From Terriglobia bacterium (GTDB lineage: Bacteria; Acidobacteriota; Terriglobia; Terriglobales; Acidobacteriaceae): a DNA stretch of 40,671 bases. Below the pieces are notes generated by a model. That model saw only the letters and a program-made list of their open reading frames with translations. It searched no databases and had not been told where the DNA came from. The stretch covers positions 1-40,671 of the forward strand of contig JAIQGK010000029.1 of the NCBI GenBank assembly GCA_020072645.1. Reading direction: 5' to 3'. Below are positions 25,874-38,528 of this stretch, in pieces (the first letter of the stretch is position 1; the number at the start of each line of letters is the position of its first letter). A program made the position numbers and the translations under genes.

Positions 25874-27625
25874 TTAGACCCGGGCCAATTCTTCTTCGAG
25901 CAATTGCTTGTTGTAAAGATCAGTGTAGTATCCGTTGCGCTCAAGCAGCTCTTCATGTGTACCCAGTTCCACAACGCGGCCTTCATGGAGCACGGCAATG
26001 CGGTCAGCATTGCGCACAGTAGAAACGCGGTGCGAAATGAAAATCGTAGTGCGGTCACGCATCACTTCGCGCAGGTGATTGAGAATGGTTTCTTCTGTAT
26101 AGGTATCGACGCTCGAAAGCGCGTCATCCAGCACCAGTATGCGCGGATCGCGGATGATCGCGCGGGCAATCGCGCTGCGCTGTTTCTGCCCGCCAGAAAG
26201 CGTGATGCCGCGCTCACCCACCATCGTCTCGTAGCCTTCAGGGAAGCCTTCAATGTCGATAGCGATATTGGCTGCCGCAGCGGCGCGCTGTACTTGGTCG
26301 TCGGTCGATGTCTCGACGCCAAAGGCGATGTTCTCGCGCACGGAGTCGCTGAATAGAAAAGTCTCCTGCGGAACAAAGCCAATGTTCTGGCGCAAAGTTT
26401 CCAGCGGATATTCGCGTATAGGACGGCCATCGATCAACAGAGAACCGGGCCGCGTGTCATAAATGCGCGGCAACAGGTTTACCAGCGTGGTCTTGCCGGA
26501 GCCGGTCGGGCCCACGATTGCAAGACTGCTGCCCGCCGGTATCGTGAGATTCACGTCCTTAAGGACGGGCGTGCCGTCATAGCTGAAATCAAGATGCCGG
26601 AATTCAATTTCGCCGCGCAAGGTGGTGGCATTTTTCAGGTCAGGCGCAACCCCCACATCGGTAATTTCAGAACGGGCCACTAGAATTTCATTGATGCGGC
26701 CCATGGAAGCGGTCCCGCGCTGGAAGAGATTGATGACCCATCCAAGCGCAATGATCGGCCACGTAAGCATCATGATATAGGTATTGAAAGCGACGAAATC
26801 ACCCAGGCTGATCTTGTGCAGAAGCACTTCACGTCCACCCAGCCAGAGCACAAGCACCAGGGCAAAGCCAAGCAGCAGCTCCAGAGTCGGCCATAGCATG
26901 CCGGTAAGGCGTGCAAGTGGAAGGCTGCGCGTTACGTATTCCTCATTACTGGTTTCAAACAGCGCGATCTCGGCTTCTTCCTGTGCGTATGCCCGGACCA
27001 CACGCGCGCCGGAAAAATTCTCTTGCGCCCGGGCAGAAATATCAGAAAACTGCGCCTGGATCTTTTCAAAACGCTCATGGATCCGCCGTCCAATGTATTG
27101 CACCACAATGCTGGCGATAGGCAGCGGCGCAAAAGCATACAGCGTGAGCTTGGGGCTGATCTGCCACATAAAGACCAGCGCCACGGCAGTAAATACCAGC
27201 GTGTTGGCTGTATACATTATCGCCGGCCCAAGCAGCATGCGCACCGCATTCAGGTCATTCGTCGCGCGGGCCATAATGTCGCCCGTGCGGTTCTTCTGGT
27301 AGTAAGAATAGGAAAGCGACTCCAGATGGCGAAACATGTCATTGCGCAGATCGTATTCAATCTCACGCGAGACGCCGATCACCAGCCAGCGGGTAAGAAA
27401 CTGGAACACACCCTTGCCCAGCGCAAGCCCCACCAGGAGCGACGCAAAAATCAGGATCTTCTGATGCGTGATGCCGTCATGGTTCAGATCGTCCACGGCG
27501 CGGCGCACCACCTGCGGCCAGAGTACCCACAGTCCGTTATTGAAAAGCACCGTAATCGCGCCCCAAAACAGCGTCGCGCGATACTTACTCAGGTAGGGCC
27601 ACAGCGGCTTGAGATTTTTGCCCAT
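25874..27625 (-). CDS. ABC exporter half-transporter (MdlA/MsbA-like) with non-canonical Walker B
   Basis: 583 residues: six membrane helices (1-310) and one nucleotide-binding domain. Walker A GPTGSGKT (372-379), signature LSGGQ (476-480), Walker B ILVLD (496-500) and H-loop H532 are intact. The residue after Walker B is D501 instead of the catalytic Glu (LDDALSSVD). This Asp is characteristic of the degenerate half of heterodimeric exporters such as MdlA/YheI, whose partner carries LDEAT. No partner is in the window. It heads an operon with a methyltransferase and a flavoenzyme and may export their product, or a lipid or drug. Confidence 0.93.
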   Translation of the reverse strand: MGKNLKPLWPYLSKYRATLFWGAITVLFNNGLWVLWPQVVRRAVDDLNHDGITHQKILIFASLLVGLALGKGVFQFLTRWLVIGVSREIEYDLRNDMFRHLESLSYSYYQKNRTGDIMARATNDLNAVRMLLGPAIMYTANTLVFTAVALVFMWQISPKLTLYAFAPLPIASIVVQYIGRRIHERFEKIQAQFSDISARAQENFSGARVVRAYAQEEAEIALFETSNEEYVTRSLPLARLTGMLWPTLELLLGFALVLVLWLGGREVLLHKISLGDFVAFNTYIMMLTWPIIALGWVINLFQRGTASMGRINEILVARSEITDVGVAPDLKNATTLRGEIEFRHLDFSYDGTPVLKDVNLTIPAGSSLAIVGPTGSGKTTLVNLLPRIYDTRPGSLLIDGRPIREYPLETLRQNIGFVPQETFLFSDSVRENIAFGVETSTDDQVQRAAAAANIAIDIEGFPEGYETMVGERGITLSGGQKQRSAIARAIIRDPRILVLDDALSSVDTYTEETILNHLREVMRDRTTIFISHRVSTVRNADRIAVLHEGRVVELGTHEELLERNGYYTDLYNKQLLEEELARV

Positions 27626-29022: not shown

Positions 29023-31398
29023 CTACGAGGGCGTCTTCATAATCAGATACCCGCCCGCCAACCCAAAAATCAAATCCGGCGACCACGCGGCGATCAGCGG
29101 AGGAAGCTGGCTTACGTTGCCCATGGCTTCAAACAGGCTGGAAGTCAGAACGTAGGTCACGCCGATGACCAGCGCTACTACCACGCCGCTGAGAGCTCCG
29201 CGGCGTCCGCCGGAAAGCGCGAAAGGCACAGCCAGCACGGCCATGACAAGCGTGATCAACGGGAACGCAATCTTTTTCTGCAACTGAACGCGCAGACGCA
29301 CCACGTCAAAGCCACCCTGCTGAAGATCGTAAATATAGCGCTGCAGTTCGTCATAGTTCATCTCAGACGATTGCAGGACTTCTTTCTTGAAATAGGTTGG
29401 CGGCTCGTTCAGTTCGGCAAAGGTGCTCACGTCAAACTTTTGCAGGTCTTCCTTACGCAGGTCTTGCTGAAGATCGGCGCCGGCAGAAATGCTCCAGGAG
29501 CGCTGCCAGCCATTTTCAAACGTCCACTTTGATAGGTGTTCCGCCCAGCGTGCTCGCGCGGCATAGACTCGCTTGACCATCTGGAAAGAATGCGGATTCA
29601 GCTCAAAGACTGAGATGCTGCCGAAAGTGTTGCGGTCCGGGTCAAAAGCCTCGTAGTAATAAATTTTGCGGTTTTCCACCGTGCCGTCAGATCTCTTCTT
29701 GCTTTCGCCAAAAATCCACTTGCGGTCAGGACGCAGATAAGTCTGCGCCGGCTTGCCTTTAATCATGTTGCGTAATGTTTCAACGCGTTTGTTGGCGTAA
29801 GGCAGATACCACTGGTCCAGAACAAAGAGGCCGCCGGCCAGCGTGGTGGCGATCACCAGAATCGGAATCACCGTGCGATAAATGCTGACGCCCGTCGCTT
29901 TCATGGCCGTAATTTCATTCGATTTCTGCATTAATCCGAACATCACCAGCACGGTCAGCAGCACGGCCAGAGGAGTGATCTGGTAAAGCACTGAAGGAAC
30001 AAAGTTGAGCAGGTATTCAAGCTGCGTGAGCAGCGGAATCTTCTTTCTCACGATGTCAGAGAGCAGCTCAAAATAAGTAAAGACCAGGAACAGCACCAGC
30101 AGGCTGGAAAGGATGAGCAGCAGATAACTCACAAAGCTGCGCAGAACGTAGTCGTCGAGAATCAGCGGAAAGCGGGTGCTGAAAAGACGACCGCGACGGC
30201 GGTTGCCATTCGTTGCAGGCTCTTCCGTTCTGGAGTTGAAGAGCTTGCCAAAGATGTCCTTAAACTGGCCAAGCAGCATTTGTCCCAGACCCAGCTCAAC
30301 AGGAATTCTGTCCGTGCGGCTGAGCAGAACCAAGCCGATGAGGCCAAAGACAATATTGGCCATCCAGACGCCCAGCACCGGAGAAATTTTTCCTCCGCGC
30401 GCCAGGGAGACGCCGATGATCGAAACAAAATAGTAGATGAAGACCAGGACGATAGTGAGCACAAAGCCTGCGCCCTTGCCGCCTTTCTTGGCGGAAAGGC
30501 CCAGCGGAATTCCAATCAGCACCAGCACCAGGCACGCAGTCGGAAGCGCAAGGCGGCGATTAAATTCTATCCAGTACCAGCGGGCAAATTCTTTATTGGG
30601 ATTGTATTTCTGGCGGTAGAGCTCCTGGGTGCTGAGCTGCGCCACGGGCACAGCGTCCTGCGCGGGCTTAGGAATCGGTGGCTGGCTGATGGCGATGTCG
30701 GTTTCCTGAAACGTCGTAATCGTGTACTGGTCAGGAGCGCGCGAATTAGTGTCGTGCGTTTCGCCGTTAATCAGATGCAGCCGGATGGCGTCGGCGCCGG
30801 AAGCGCTGACAATAGCTTCTTTGGCGATGGTGATCTTGGGAGCGCCGGGAGTGCTGATGTCGGCGTCAAAAACATTTTTCCAGACCGCCGCGCCGCCAGC
30901 GCTGGAAACGTCTTCCACATAAAGCACATGGTTCTTAAATCCTTCATAGAAAACGTGCGGCTGGACTTCAAAAGAAATCTGCGTGGCAGCCAGCTTGTTT
31001 TGCAGTCCTGCCAGCGCCGCGGCGGAGCGGGGTTCAACGATGACTGTATTGACCAGCGCAAGACACCATGCAGCAAAACCGAATACCGAGATGATTTTCA
31101 GGAATTTACGAACACTCACCCCGGAAGCGCGCATCGCCGTGACTTCACTATCGGCGGCCATGCGGCTGAGCCCCAGCAGGATTCCCACCAGCACTCCCAT
31201 GGGGATAGTGACTTTTAAGGCGGCAGGTAGCGTAAGAAAGAAAATTTCCGCAACGCTGGGAAAGGGAGCGCTGTTGCGCACCACGGCTTCAAGGATGCGC
31301 GTGAGTTCGCGCATAAAAATGACGAAAGTGAACACTGAGGCCCCAATGAGCCCGTGCCAGAGCACTTCCTTCAGTATGTAGCGGGTAAAAATGCGCAC
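29023..31398 (-). CDS. LptF-LptG fusion, lipopolysaccharide export permease
   Basis: 791 residues containing two consecutive YjgP/YjgQ domains. The LptF-like half (about 1-380) begins MRIFTRYILKEVLWHG and has six helices around a periplasmic domain. A linker rich in charged residues (about 380-410) leads to the LptG-like half (about 410-791), which repeats the six-helix arrangement (LDDYVLRSFVSYLLLI at its start). In most bacteria these are two genes forming the permease that, with the LptB ATPase, pulls LPS from the inner membrane. The start is a GTG at 31398; no LptB is in the window. Confidence 0.9.
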   Translation of the reverse strand: MRIFTRYILKEVLWHGLIGASVFTFVIFMRELTRILEAVVRNSAPFPSVAEIFFLTLPAALKVTIPMGVLVGILLGLSRMAADSEVTAMRASGVSVRKFLKIISVFGFAAWCLALVNTVIVEPRSAAALAGLQNKLAATQISFEVQPHVFYEGFKNHVLYVEDVSSAGGAAVWKNVFDADISTPGAPKITIAKEAIVSASGADAIRLHLINGETHDTNSRAPDQYTITTFQETDIAISQPPIPKPAQDAVPVAQLSTQELYRQKYNPNKEFARWYWIEFNRRLALPTACLVLVLIGIPLGLSAKKGGKGAGFVLTIVLVFIYYFVSIIGVSLARGGKISPVLGVWMANIVFGLIGLVLLSRTDRIPVELGLGQMLLGQFKDIFGKLFNSRTEEPATNGNRRRGRLFSTRFPLILDDYVLRSFVSYLLLILSSLLVLFLVFTYFELLSDIVRKKIPLLTQLEYLLNFVPSVLYQITPLAVLLTVLVMFGLMQKSNEITAMKATGVSIYRTVIPILVIATTLAGGLFVLDQWYLPYANKRVETLRNMIKGKPAQTYLRPDRKWIFGESKKRSDGTVENRKIYYYEAFDPDRNTFGSISVFELNPHSFQMVKRVYAARARWAEHLSKWTFENGWQRSWSISAGADLQQDLRKEDLQKFDVSTFAELNEPPTYFKKEVLQSSEMNYDELQRYIYDLQQGGFDVVRLRVQLQKKIAFPLITLVMAVLAVPFALSGGRRGALSGVVVALVIGVTYVLTSSLFEAMGNVSQLPPLIAAWSPDLIFGLAGGYLIMKTPS

Positions 31399-33668: not shown

Positions 33669-33982
33669 GGAGCAGTAGTTAGTATTTAGTACTTGGCCGT
33701 AAGTCCGCAACGGTTGACCTATCCTAAAAATGTGGGAATGGTGGAGACAGGAAACGCCAAAGATCGTGTGACATGGAACAGCAACTTCCGCATTGGCGCA
33801 CCACCGTTGCAGTTGTCGTCCGGCTTCCCAAAGTGGAATTTCAGCTCGCAAAAATTTAGTCCGGCAAGCCGCGTGAAAGAATTTTCTTGTTACGATTGCG
33901 GTCTCTCATTTTGAAGGGCCGCTTCCGCCTCCTTACTGGACCAACGGTTTTGTGGCGAATGGCGGCAGAAAGGACTCATGAC
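33669..33982. other. 314-bp region upstream of the double-glycine peptide
   Basis: After the GH57 stop there is an A/T-rich stretch (AGTTAGTATTTAGTACTT) and then mixed sequence. A 73-codon frame (33693-33914) has no recognisable sequence or ribosome site and was not annotated. The promoter of the peptide gene is expected here. Confidence 0.4.
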
Positions 33983-34132
33983 ATGACAAACGATAAAGAT
34001 AATCGAGTACTGGGTAGAAAAGGCGCGAGAACGTTATCGAATGAAGAACTGCTGCAGGTACCCGGCGGAAGTGGAACGCTCAAGATCACGCATCTTCCTA
34101 ACGGCCTTGCCGATGCCCTGGCAGATTTTTAG
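33983..34132 (+). CDS. Short peptide precursor with double-glycine leader (putative bacteriocin/RiPP-like)
   Basis: 49 residues. The leader (1-29) contains LSNEELLQVPGG, which matches the double-glycine leader consensus at every key position: Leu-12, Ser-11, Glu-8, Leu-7, a branched residue at -4, and Gly-Gly at -2/-1. The predicted mature part is 20 residues (positions 30-49, SGTLKITHLP... to the C-terminal Phe), with no cysteine and acidic overall. AAAGGA about 8 nt upstream of the ATG supports this start. Such leaders are normally cut by a C39 peptidase of an ABC exporter, but none is in the window. It may be a signalling peptide, bacteriocin or an orphan of a dispersed family. Confidence 0.72.
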   Translation: MTNDKDNRVLGRKGARTLSNEELLQVPGGSGTLKITHLPNGLADALADF

Positions 34133-34202
34133 AGCTGCCGAAGAACCATGCGAAGCTCAAACTGTTGAACCCACCCTTTCGCCGGAAGCTGAAGAAACAA
34201 GG

Positions 34203-34258
34203 GCCAGCATCCGCGAAAGAGTGGGGCACCGGAGGCTGGCTATTAGCTCTTAGCTAAT
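34203..34258. terminator. Hairpins between peptide gene and permease
   Basis: GCCAGC (34203-34208) pairs with GCTGGC (34235-34240), and immediately after it ATTAGCT (34242-34248) pairs with AGCTAAT (34252-34258) around a 3-nt loop. They sit between convergent genes, the second overlapping the permease 3' end. No T-run follows, so they may be weak or act on both strands. Confidence 0.4.
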
Positions 34259-35724
34259 GGTTCGCCTAACGCCCTTTGCCTGTGGCTTCGTCTTTTGCCA
34301 CCTTTGTAAATCGCCAGGCCCAGCATATTGCTCAGCACCACCACGGCGCAGATCTTTGCCGCGTACACGCCAGGGTCAGCCACGTCGATAATTGGGTAAA
34401 CCATGATTACCAGCGAGACCAGGCTGGAAACCAATCCTACCAGCGACAATACCTTCACCCATGTGGGCAGCGCGCTTCGCAGTGCGCGGCGGCCCAGCAG
34501 CGGCAACGCGAACAATGCCACATAGGCGATCGCGTAAAGAGCAATCGACGAGCCGGCCAGAAGCTGGCTTGCTTCCTGTTCGCGCACGCCCAGCATGCTG
34601 AAGAAGATAAGCAGCATGACCAGCGCGGCTACAAAGAGAATCGAATTCACCGGGGTCCGTCGATTCGGATGAAGGCGCGCGAACCAGCGTGGCACCAGGT
34701 TGTCCCACCCGGCGGTCATCGGCAGGCGTGTGAGGCCGGTAAAGATCAGGCTGGCGCTGGCCACTGCGCGCATCATCAGCAGAGAGATTGCCAGCGGCGC
34801 GGCCCAACCCGCGTCGCCAAAGGCGCTCCGCATGGTCTGGGGAATGGGGCCAATCACGTTGATGGGCTGTGATCCGACAAAGGTCAGCACTGAACTGGTT
34901 CCCAGAATGAACATCAGCGCAATGATAGGAGCTGAAATCACCACGGACTGCCCAATGGTGCGCGCCGCGTTGCGAGACTCGCCTGCCAGAATGGCCACGT
35001 ATTCGAATCCGCTCAGCGCTCCCACGGTCATCTGGCCGAAAATTGCCAGACCAAACCATGATGGCCGCGGGGGCTGCCACGGTATTGGCTCATAGTGTGT
35101 GATGGTGCCGCGCAGCAGCGCCCACAGCGGCAGGCCCAGCAGAATCACGTACGCGGCCATCACTCCTATGCTGCCCACGTTGTGCAGCCATTTCCCAATG
35201 TCCAGGCCTCGGATCGCAACCAGAGTGATGCCGGCCATTACTCCCCCGGTCAGCACAAGCGTCGCGAGTTTGCTTGCGGGAATCCACGCTCCGGCCGCGC
35301 CCAGAATGTAGCCCAGATCTGTGGGGACAACGAAGATGATGGCGCCAGTGACAATGACCGCGTAGACCCATAGGTTCCACGCCGTGAGAAATCCGGCCAT
35401 TTCGCCAAAACCGGATTTTGCCCATTGGTAGAGACCGCCCTCCAGAGGCATCATCCGGTTCAGGTATATGACCACGGCTGCCAGCGGAATGTAATAGAGA
35501 ACCATCGCGCCCAGCCAGAAGGCCACGTGCGCGCGCCCTAATTTTGCCGCGATGCCCACCCACGTCGAGCCAACTACGCATAGCACCTGCGCCATGACAA
35601 GATCGCCAAGACCTAGTTCCTTACGCAGGCCTGCCTGTTCGCTCGTTGTAGTGTCTGGCACGGTCAACAATGATGCCACAATACGGCAATACCAGTCTTG
35701 CCAGCGGACGGGAGACTGTTTCAA
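34243..35724 (-). CDS. APC-family amino acid/amine permease
   Basis: 493 residues with about 12-13 helices and the first-helix pattern GLGDLVMAQVLCVVGSTWVGIAAK seen in APC-superfamily transporters, plus GFEYVAILAGESRNAAR in the region of helix 6 that binds the substrate amino group. It imports amino acids or polyamines, probably with protons. The start is uncertain: the TTG at 35724 follows the upstream stop closely, but no ribosome site is seen and a GTG about 48-63 bp later is possible. It is probably co-transcribed with the zinc-ribbon gene (7-bp gap). Confidence 0.87.
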   Translation of the reverse strand: MKQSPVRWQDWYCRIVASLLTVPDTTTSEQAGLRKELGLGDLVMAQVLCVVGSTWVGIAAKLGRAHVAFWLGAMVLYYIPLAAVVIYLNRMMPLEGGLYQWAKSGFGEMAGFLTAWNLWVYAVIVTGAIIFVVPTDLGYILGAAGAWIPASKLATLVLTGGVMAGITLVAIRGLDIGKWLHNVGSIGVMAAYVILLGLPLWALLRGTITHYEPIPWQPPRPSWFGLAIFGQMTVGALSGFEYVAILAGESRNAARTIGQSVVISAPIIALMFILGTSSVLTFVGSQPINVIGPIPQTMRSAFGDAGWAAPLAISLLMMRAVASASLIFTGLTRLPMTAGWDNLVPRWFARLHPNRRTPVNSILFVAALVMLLIFFSMLGVREQEASQLLAGSSIALYAIAYVALFALPLLGRRALRSALPTWVKVLSLVGLVSSLVSLVIMVYPIIDVADPGVYAAKICAVVVLSNMLGLAIYKGGKRRSHRQRALGEPLAKS

Positions 35725-37256: not shown

Positions 37257-38528
37257 TTAGTAAGCTATTAAAGTTTCACGCCTTTTACTGTCCCCCACAA
37301 CTATCAACGTGTCAATACTTTCCGGCGCATTTGCGTCAGCCGCGTTACCCTGCGTTTGCGCCTGGTTTGCGTCCAGTGGCGCCGGAGAATCGAGCCTGTC
37401 AATCAAGCTCACGTTCGCGCTGGGCTGCAGCCGTCCGTAGACATCGGCCGTAATTTTGATAGAGCTGTGACCAAGCTGCTCACTCACATATTTCATCGAT
37501 GCGCCGCTCTGGATCATCAGTACCGCAAACGTGTGACGGAGGCAATGCGGAGTGAATCTTTGGATCCCCGCTGCTTGGCAGGCTGGGTCCATGAAGCGCA
37601 GCCCGATAGTGCGCGGCGTCAGGGGCTCGCCATCTTCACGCGGAAAAAGTAGCTGCTCGGAAAAACTCTCATCGGTTCCAAGCTGCATCGCGGCCAGCAT
37701 CCGGGCCTCGCGCAATTCGAGCAAGACGGCGCGGAGCTGCCTGGACATATCCACTCGCCTTTTGCTGCCGATGGTCTTGGGTGTCTCAAAGCCGTACACC
37801 GTGAACTGCCGCGACACCATGAAATACCTGTTGGGATCGTTCTCGTCTTTTCCAAAAGCACAATCTCCCCACTTCAGCCCGATCAGTTCACCGCGCCTCA
37901 TCCCGGTACGCAGCGCGGTTAGGAACAGCGGATAGCGTTCAGGGAAAAGATCACGTACCGCATCAAGGAACAATTCAGATTCCCGCTGCGTCATGCTTTC
38001 GATCTCTCGCGCCGGTTTATCTGACTTCACCATGCGGCCCAGGCAGGATGCAGGATTGCTGGTTGCCACCTTGTGCTTCACGGCATAGGTAAAAAAGCTG
38101 CGCAGGCATCCGACTATCAAGCTAATGGTCTTTTGCGCGTGAACGCATTGCCCGTTCTCTTTCTTTGTCGCCAGGGCATAAACGAAGTCCTCAACGCGCT
38201 CCGCGGTGACGGCGCTCACGCGCTGTTTTCCGAAGTAGGGTAGGATGTGGCAGTCCATGAGCCACTTGTAAAGCGCGAGGGTGGCCGGCTTCGTGTTTAT
38301 CTCGATGTGTTTCTTGAGCCAGCGGTCGGCGTATTCTGAAAAGATAACGGCTCGGGCATCGTCCTCTCCGAAGATACCCATGTCGCCCTGAGCCAGTCGT
38401 CCCTCAACCTTGCGGGCGACCTCTCGCGCAATCTCAAGCGAGTTGCCGATCTTCTTCGTTTTGCGGTGGCCCTTGTAGTTGATTACCAGATACCACGATC
38501 CGCGAATCTTCTTTACCTTCACGCCCAT
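37257..38528 (-). CDS. Site-specific tyrosine recombinase (phage-type integrase)
   Basis: 423 residues. An N-terminal arm-binding region (about 1-50) and core-binding SAM-like domain (60-170) precede the catalytic domain with the expected set: R211 in RTGMRRGELIGLKW, K256 in IGSKRRVD, H328 and R331 in HCLRHTF, H354 in LGHSS and the nucleophile Y364 in DVYGRL. It cuts and rejoins DNA at an att site. The C-terminus extends about 50 residues beyond the Tyr. It is the third gene of an operon whose first two genes overlap; the gap to the excisionase-like gene is 3 nt. Confidence 0.93.
   Translation of the reverse strand: MGVKVKKIRGSWYLVINYKGHRKTKKIGNSLEIAREVARKVEGRLAQGDMGIFGEDDARAVIFSEYADRWLKKHIEINTKPATLALYKWLMDCHILPYFGKQRVSAVTAERVEDFVYALATKKENGQCVHAQKTISLIVGCLRSFFTYAVKHKVATSNPASCLGRMVKSDKPAREIESMTQRESELFLDAVRDLFPERYPLFLTALRTGMRRGELIGLKWGDCAFGKDENDPNRYFMVSRQFTVYGFETPKTIGSKRRVDMSRQLRAVLLELREARMLAAMQLGTDESFSEQLLFPREDGEPLTPRTIGLRFMDPACQAAGIQRFTPHCLRHTFAVLMIQSGASMKYVSEQLGHSSIKITADVYGRLQPSANVSLIDRLDSPAPLDANQAQTQGNAADANAPESIDTLIVVGDSKRRETLIAY

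Follow-up and report, generated by a model that had tools for sequence, protein, structure and literature searches.

A dispersed double-glycine leader peptide gene of an acidobacterium as a probable graspetide precursor modified in trans

What does a 49-codon gene with a double-glycine leader encode when no gene for the maturation of its product lies beside it? Such a gene is found in the DNA analyzed here, a stretch of 40,671 bases (the window) that is an entire contig (C29) of a Terriglobia genome (6.44 Mb, 42 contigs, 99% complete) whose genus appears to be Candidatus Angelobacter. Since the window is the whole contig and is bounded by contig ends, the view of the neighborhood is limited to 34 kb on the left of the gene and 6.5 kb on the right, and neither a ligase gene nor a C39 gene is present in either part. 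The original prediction, which held that the window lacks a C39 peptidase, an exporter and a modification enzyme, was correct as to the ligase and the C39 peptidase; it missed an ABC exporter-like ORF, which is probably unrelated to the peptide. The features of the locus are listed below (G006 and G001 are two congeners).

33824..33982, + strand: probable promoter or regulatory block, 95% identical to G006 over its last 150 nt
33969..33974, + strand: ribosome-binding site AAAGGA, ending 8 nt before the ATG
33983..34132, + strand: precursor peptide gene, 49 amino acids plus stop (translation, leave-one-out HMM, relatives in G006 and G001)
33983..34069, + strand: leader NRVLGRKGARTLSNEELLQV, residues 1-29 with GG at the end (family alignment)
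34070..34129, + strand: predicted core SGTLKITHLPNGLADALADF, 20 residues (core comparison)
34076-34078 and 34088-34090, + strand: candidate donors T32 and T36 (TxxxT-x7-DxxxD pattern; linkage predicted)
34082-34084, + strand: less likely candidate donor K34 (core comparison; linkage predicted)
34112-34114 and 34124-34126, + strand: candidate acceptors D44 and D48 (TxxxT-x7-DxxxD pattern; linkage predicted)
25874-27625, - strand: ABC exporter-like ORF, recognized by eye; no C39 match on the contig

The ORF translates as MTNDKDNRVLGRKGARTLSNEELLQVPGGSGTLKITHLPNGLADALADF and is real, as had been proposed. A profile made from 31 other members of its family finds it with E=1.6e-12 as the sole significant match among the 1160 stop-to-stop frames of the window, the second best of which reaches E=0.42. 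Because this leave-one-out profile finds it, the ORF is a family member and not a chance likeness to a double-glycine leader. The AAAGGA sequence is the good ribosome site that had been said to fix the start, and the start codon is consistent with the family alignment. All eight invariant or nearly invariant family positions are retained in the leader (R8, V9, L10, R12, A15, R16, L18 and E22). The predicted product is free of cysteine, as claimed, and only mildly acidic, with two Asp and one Lys. Searches of Pfam and NCBIfam with the peptide gave no match above cut-off; the curated ComC model scored 13.3 bits (cut-off 20.4, E=0.073) and the EntF model 11.9 bits (cut-off 35, E=0.22). The gene is genuine and conserved, and the precursor that it encodes probably gives a ring-forming secreted peptide.

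The family is large in the window's own genome (G000), where the family profile finds 34 members at E<=0.001, 26 of them in four clusters and 8 dispersed (window copy included). The clusters comprise an array of 14 on contig C2 (one truncated to 27 amino acids), 7 on C3, 2 on C10 and 3 on C19, while the dispersed copies are located on C1, C5, C6 and C7, at C3:121519, C3:212238 and C19:62883, and in the window. The gene had been called an orphan, which is true of the locus only; the peptide belongs to a set of about 34 genome-wide. The window peptide alone, used as a query against the same genome, also gives 34 matches at E<=10, a list that differs from that of the profile in holding one probable false match (C3:507028, a 202-amino-acid frame) and in lacking C19:71782. 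The own-genome alignment contains 32 of the 34 members, with one truncated and one later-found member left out.

Members of the family have a common leader of the pattern NRVLxRxGARxLxxxE...V.G[GA] and variable cores, in keeping with the dispersed family that was originally envisaged. The leader was examined in 77 peptides from seven genomes of the genus. These are derived from 85 family rows, 80 of which were kept for a script-found M start and E<1e-8 (the five dropped include a genuine member, C10:107054, whose start was missed by the script, and G006 C330 fragments); three more were then left out, one because it lacks the RVL pattern and two because their cores are shorter than 14 residues. 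The conserved positions are R in 77, V in 76, L in 75, R in 75, A in 75, R in 75, L in 74 and E in 76 peptides, the first four of these counts being partly a product of selection as the anchor pattern fixes R and limits the next positions. The leaders end in GG (43), GA (15), AA (8), GS (4), AG (3), GQ (2), AS (1) and GD (1). The idea that the family is acidobacterial at large did not hold, as a member at E<=1e-5 was present in 3 of 396 genomes in a sample of the phylum, including the window's own, with at most 17 candidates scored per genome. Homologous leaders in related genomes and a C39 peptidase elsewhere in the genome, whose absence the original prediction had named as counting against it, were both found, so that absence is excluded.

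Each of the four clusters is followed by an ORF of 364-394 amino acids. Three of the four were scanned against NCBIfam and matched TIGR04187 (E=4.5e-47 to 3.2e-42), MvdD, MvdC and TIGR04184, all below the curated cut-offs; Pfam gave no match to the ligases scanned. A profile of all four matches six PDB sequences (CdnC, MdnC, MdnB, AMdnB, 9bou and PsnB), including CdnC (7mgv) with E=4.2e-30 and MdnC (5ig9) with E=5.2e-29. The DWR and E-x-N motifs are invariant in the ligases. A predicted model of a homologue that is 97% identical to the C2 ligase (pLDDT 86) was used in a fold search, in which PDB ranks 1-30 are RiPP-type ATP-grasp ligases (nine entries), with RimK from rank 31. The chains in the top 30 are CdnC, AMdnB, MdnB, MdnC, PsnB and PruB, the last of which we take to be a RiPP-type ATP-grasp ligase. 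To judge by sequence and predicted fold, the four ligases are likely of the graspetide synthetase type (MvdC/MvdD/PsnB-like). The genome encodes two further, remote ligases at 30-34% identity.

The ligases and the peptides occur together. Ligase genes were located in 8 genomes, 15 in all, and each has a match to a family peptide 69-169 nt upstream of it; the nearest upstream peptide is truncated at G006 C24, and the match is weak in G048 (E=6.4e-4). Among 61 genomes (the window's own and 60 relatives), a ligase at E<=1e-30 is present in 7, and all 7 have peptides. Peptides at E<=0.001 are found in 10 of the 61, and the three without a ligase are G005, which is 81% complete in 850 contigs and has peptides with no ligase found, and G039 and G045, in which weak peptide matches lie inside 270-amino-acid frames. 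In another genus (G296, one of the 396 phylum genomes sampled), a weak peptide match found by profile only (E=5.3e-6) was followed by the finding of a ligase 123 nt downstream, a prediction from the peptide profile that held. Short ORFs with related leaders are also located upstream of remoter ligases (30-38% identity) of other acidobacteria, a proteobacterium and a myxobacterium, in a scan of 15 of 79 loci; the 64 left out are mostly gammaproteobacterial and actinobacterial at <=32% identity, and locus L106 was taken as the same contig as G048. At the loci L107, L108 and L171, which are not of the genus, short ORFs with such a leader (RVLAYTLAKxVSHEEL in L107) precede remote ATP-grasp relatives. 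The leader type may reach beyond acidobacteria.

The cores also point to a ligase substrate. Thirty-five of 36 non-redundant cores have at least two Thr before at least two Asp/Glu, whereas 2000 shuffles gave 17.6 such cores on average and 26 at most; because the cores have a common ancestry, the shuffles overstate significance. In the same 36 cores, the first halves contain 95 Thr and 12 Asp/Glu, and the second halves 30 Thr and 95 Asp/Glu. This is the donor-acceptor order of graspetides. When all cores are considered, 75 of 77 have it; the two that fail are identical dispersed peptides (G000 C5:124371 and G006 C338:12486) with one Thr and one Asp each, which suggests that dispersed copies may not all be ligase substrates. 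Over 502 between-genome core pairs, which are not independent, conservation is 0.86 for Cys, 0.78 for Asp, 0.70 for Thr, 0.69 for Glu and 0.66 for Gly, and Ser (0.30) and Lys (0.21) are poorly conserved. The high conservation of Cys suggests disulfides in many family members, the window core being one without Cys, and the poor conservation of Lys speaks against K34 as a general donor. Ligase linkage together with cores in which Thr precedes Asp/Glu leads us to read the window peptide as a cross-linked graspetide, instead of the plain secreted or signal peptide that had been suggested. The earlier idea of a family processed in trans holds as far as the dispersed family is concerned; it overlooked the ligase, which would make the product a macrocycle.

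Relatives of the window peptide are 88% identical in G006 and 57% identical in G001. In none of the three genomes does the gene share a contig with the ligases, from which it has thus remained separate. The core SGTLKITHLPNGLADALADF and its G001 counterpart SGTFKVTGCFRCTTDVITD are identical at 7 of 19 positions, namely S30, G31, T32, K34, T36, D44 and D48 only. The six Thr, Ser, Lys and Asp residues are all identical, as opposed to 1 of 13 other residues (p=2.6e-4, or p=0.009 for Thr and Asp only, both tested after the pair had been seen). T32, K34, T36, D44 and D48 are retained in both the G006 and the G001 relatives. The dN/dS of the window/G001 pair is 0.55 for the full gene, 0.25 for the leader and 1.43 for the core. 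The core value indicates that a few side chains are held, not the whole core, and that the loops change fast.

The spacing TxxxT-x4..8-DxxxD occurs in 12 of 77 cores (mean 0.65 and maximum 4 in 1000 shuffles). A C-terminal DxxxD is present in 14/14 C3-type and 5/5 C19-type cores, in 1/31 C2-type, 0/2 C10-type, 0/9 other cluster and 7/16 dispersed cores, where types were assigned by ligase identity (78-97% to the own-genome ligase of the type) and, in G005, by the peptides. As C3-type cores are without Cys (0/14) and C19-type cores have it (5/5), the window core seems nearest to the C3 kind; a C19 pairing is also possible from the sequences, and G001 has a C19-type ligase (78% identity) and no C3-type. 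Since DxxxD is common to both types of core, the motif does not assign the window copy to a single ligase. In its THLP segment, the window core is also similar to the first gene of the C2 array.

Upstream of the C2 array, the own genome encodes a 716-amino-acid C39 peptidase/ABC exporter (C2:96561-98711). Such an exporter adjoins the main array in G000, G001, G004, G005, G006 and G008. The gene order is exporter-peptides-ligase in G000, G004, G006 and G008; G001 shows it too, with an additional ligase. In G005, the exporter and two peptides lie on a contig that stops 31 nt past the last match, and G007 has one ligase and one peptide with no C39/ABC beside them. A short ORF with an HlyD-like start (by eye) and no Pfam or NCBIfam match precedes the C2 exporter and recurs in G004, G005, G006 and G008. 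A C39 gene was not found beside the C3, C10 and C19 clusters of the own genome, so on the graspetide reading they too would rely on an exporter from another part of the genome. One more C39 ORF, without a known partner, is located at C1:329561. With a leader ending in GG and a C39 ABC exporter in the genome, the window peptide has what a double-glycine precursor requires, and cleavage is predicted. A PPK2 polyphosphate kinase follows the C2-cluster ligase in G000 (C2:103415-104308; L022 5416-6309), and G006 has a like ORF; this is probably incidental.

We propose, with a probability of roughly three in four, that the gene encodes a graspetide (omega-ester/amide) precursor that is cross-linked in trans by an ATP-grasp ligase, cut after GG by C39 and exported. 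Family membership, the ligase linkage of the family, the exporter linkage of its main array, selection and the core pattern support this reading by computation; modification in trans, the ring connectivity, cleavage and the activity of the product are what we infer. The leader NRVLGRKGARTLSNEELLQV would be bound by an MvdC/MvdD-like ATP-grasp ligase from one of the four clusters on other contigs, most likely of the C3 or C19 type. With ATP, the ligase would activate D44 and D48 at their side-chain carboxylates and join these to T32 and T36 (or K34), and the TxxxT-x7-DxxxD arrangement would most simply give two nested rings. The C39 domain of the C2-array peptidase/ABC exporter would then cut after GG29 and export the 20-residue product, whose site of action would be extracytoplasmic, where it might inhibit proteases or serve in competition. 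Microviridins and plesiocin are serine protease inhibitors according to PMC13097080; by analogy, protease inhibition may be guessed for the window product. The window core has candidate donors and acceptors in the order expected of a graspetide precursor, and the link to a ligase is made through leader homology only, with no ligase near this copy. Phhx(1,2)h, a common motif of graspetide leaders, occurs in 0 of the 77 leaders examined, which counts against the graspetide reading.

The double-glycine leader, the C39/ABC exporter of the genome and the weak, sub-threshold likeness to EntF and ComC could also be those of an unmodified peptide, similar to a pheromone or bacteriocin, that uses the family leader only to be cleaved by C39 and exported. 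Within C19:59899-62883 (L024), a histidine kinase and a LytTR response regulator are encoded as a pair, and the dispersed relative C19:62883 is located about 0.9 kb upstream of them, an arrangement known from peptide signaling, but no two-component system was seen by eye directly beside the window copy. However, the EntF and ComC matches score far below the curated cut-offs, the ligase-linked peptides (15/15 ligases) have the same leader, and the conserved core residues are those that a ligase would join. An unmodified product is thus unlikely, and a simple bacteriocin or pheromone was rejected as the first choice on the ligase-linked leader and the core residues.

Detachment from any ligase, a position that is rearranged between species (inverted relative to a permease in G006, elsewhere in G001) and a core dN/dS of 1.43 against G001 might be the marks of a relic, a precursor transposed out of a cluster that has become separated from its ligase and is now in decay. 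Decay is quite improbable given that the gene is intact in three species, that the upstream 150 nt are 95% conserved and that dN/dS relative to G006 is 0.10 for the whole gene (16 synonymous and 7 non-synonymous changes), 0.16 for the leader and 0.05 for the core. The ligase may also recognize the leader and carry out a chemistry other than ester/amide macrocycles, such as amino-acid addition or another condensation, given the versatility of the ATP-grasp superfamily, the RimK-type ligases that come next in the fold search and a leader without the common graspetide motif; as RiPP-type ATP-grasp ligases fill the first 30 places of that search and the donor/acceptor order is seen in the cores, we regard this as very improbable. 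The genome may hold, at even odds, a prochlorosin-like graspetide repertoire in which some 34 precursors share one leader, 8 have loci of their own with separate upstream regions, and all are served in trans by four ligases and a common C39 exporter.

Graspetides such as microviridin, plesiocin and chryseoviridin are made by enzymes (MdnB/MdnC, PsnB and CdnC) with the same ATP-grasp macrocyclase sequence and predicted fold, and their precursors likewise consist of a leader and a Thr-rich, then Asp/Glu-rich core. The family described here has a different leader, and its precursors number up to 14 per array and 34 per genome, with 8 away from clusters. According to PMC8939145, a GG site and a C39/ABC exporter are also known from many graspetide loci, chryseoviridin loci have four distinct precursors, and the Phhx(1,2)h motif is present in about half of known graspetide precursors and is not strictly defining. 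Class II bacteriocins and ComC/EntF-type peptides follow the same logic of double-glycine leader and C39 ABC exporter, whereas here there is no family match above cut-off, the family is linked to a modifying ligase, and over the longer distance the window core is kept almost only at cross-linkable residues. Prochlorosins are lanthipeptides whose many dispersed precursors, with one leader and variable cores, are modified in trans by few enzymes (the LanM enzyme ProcM). The window family is similar in its many dispersed precursors, single leader and variable cores, but its enzyme is an ATP-grasp ligase and not a LanM, and action in trans is here a deduction.

PMC13001092 reports a few group 13 (PIMT-associated) graspetide clusters from Acidobacteria. 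Candidatus Angelobacter is noted for NRPS and PKS clusters. In PMC9723581, a shared ribosomal peptide cluster family is mentioned, and the main text does not contain the words "RiPP", "graspetide", "microviridin" or "bacteriocin". No description of the family leader, of the precursor expansion or of dispersed or ligase-free graspetide loci was found in the literature within reach, which did not extend to supplementary tables and subscription papers. The chemistry class is already known; the leader, the expansion and the ligase-free loci seem new, though earlier notice is possible. Graspetides are usually discovered by inspecting the surroundings of a ligase gene, and detached precursors are invisible to such a search. 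Here, searching with a leader profile recovers detached copies and led to a ligase in another genus (G296). If the reading is true, dispersed peptides under separate control would all depend on a single hub of ligase and exporter, and combinatorial RiPP biosynthesis by ATP-grasp chemistry could be tested on this case. With such a maturation hub, a soil acidobacterium could deploy its different cross-linked peptides independently of one another.

The upstream block of the window gene has a sharp left border and is conserved above the gene's synonymous sites (95% over 150 nt against a dS of 0.64, both relative to G006); it is probably a promoter or regulatory region. The block may hold a regulated promoter or RNA element. 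Rfam at gathering thresholds gave no match in the whole window, and a search for an upstream motif common to the eight own dispersed copies (promoter, sigma-54-like) gave nothing clearly beyond shuffles. The block 33824-34132 is inverted relative to the neighboring amino-acid permease in G006, where its left neighbor differs; the wider region noted for this inversion is 33824-34276. The G001 relative is located at a different genomic place. A mobile cassette was considered and rejected, as the sole inverted pair around the block (33724-33734 and 34122-34132, 91%) is only 11 nt and could be chance. Elsewhere in the window, a 791-amino-acid ORF (29023-31398, - strand) has two LptF/LptG permease stretches (PF03739) and is apparently a fused LptF-LptG, not two genes. 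A phage-type integrase (37257-38528, - strand) is located about 3 kb from the peptide gene.
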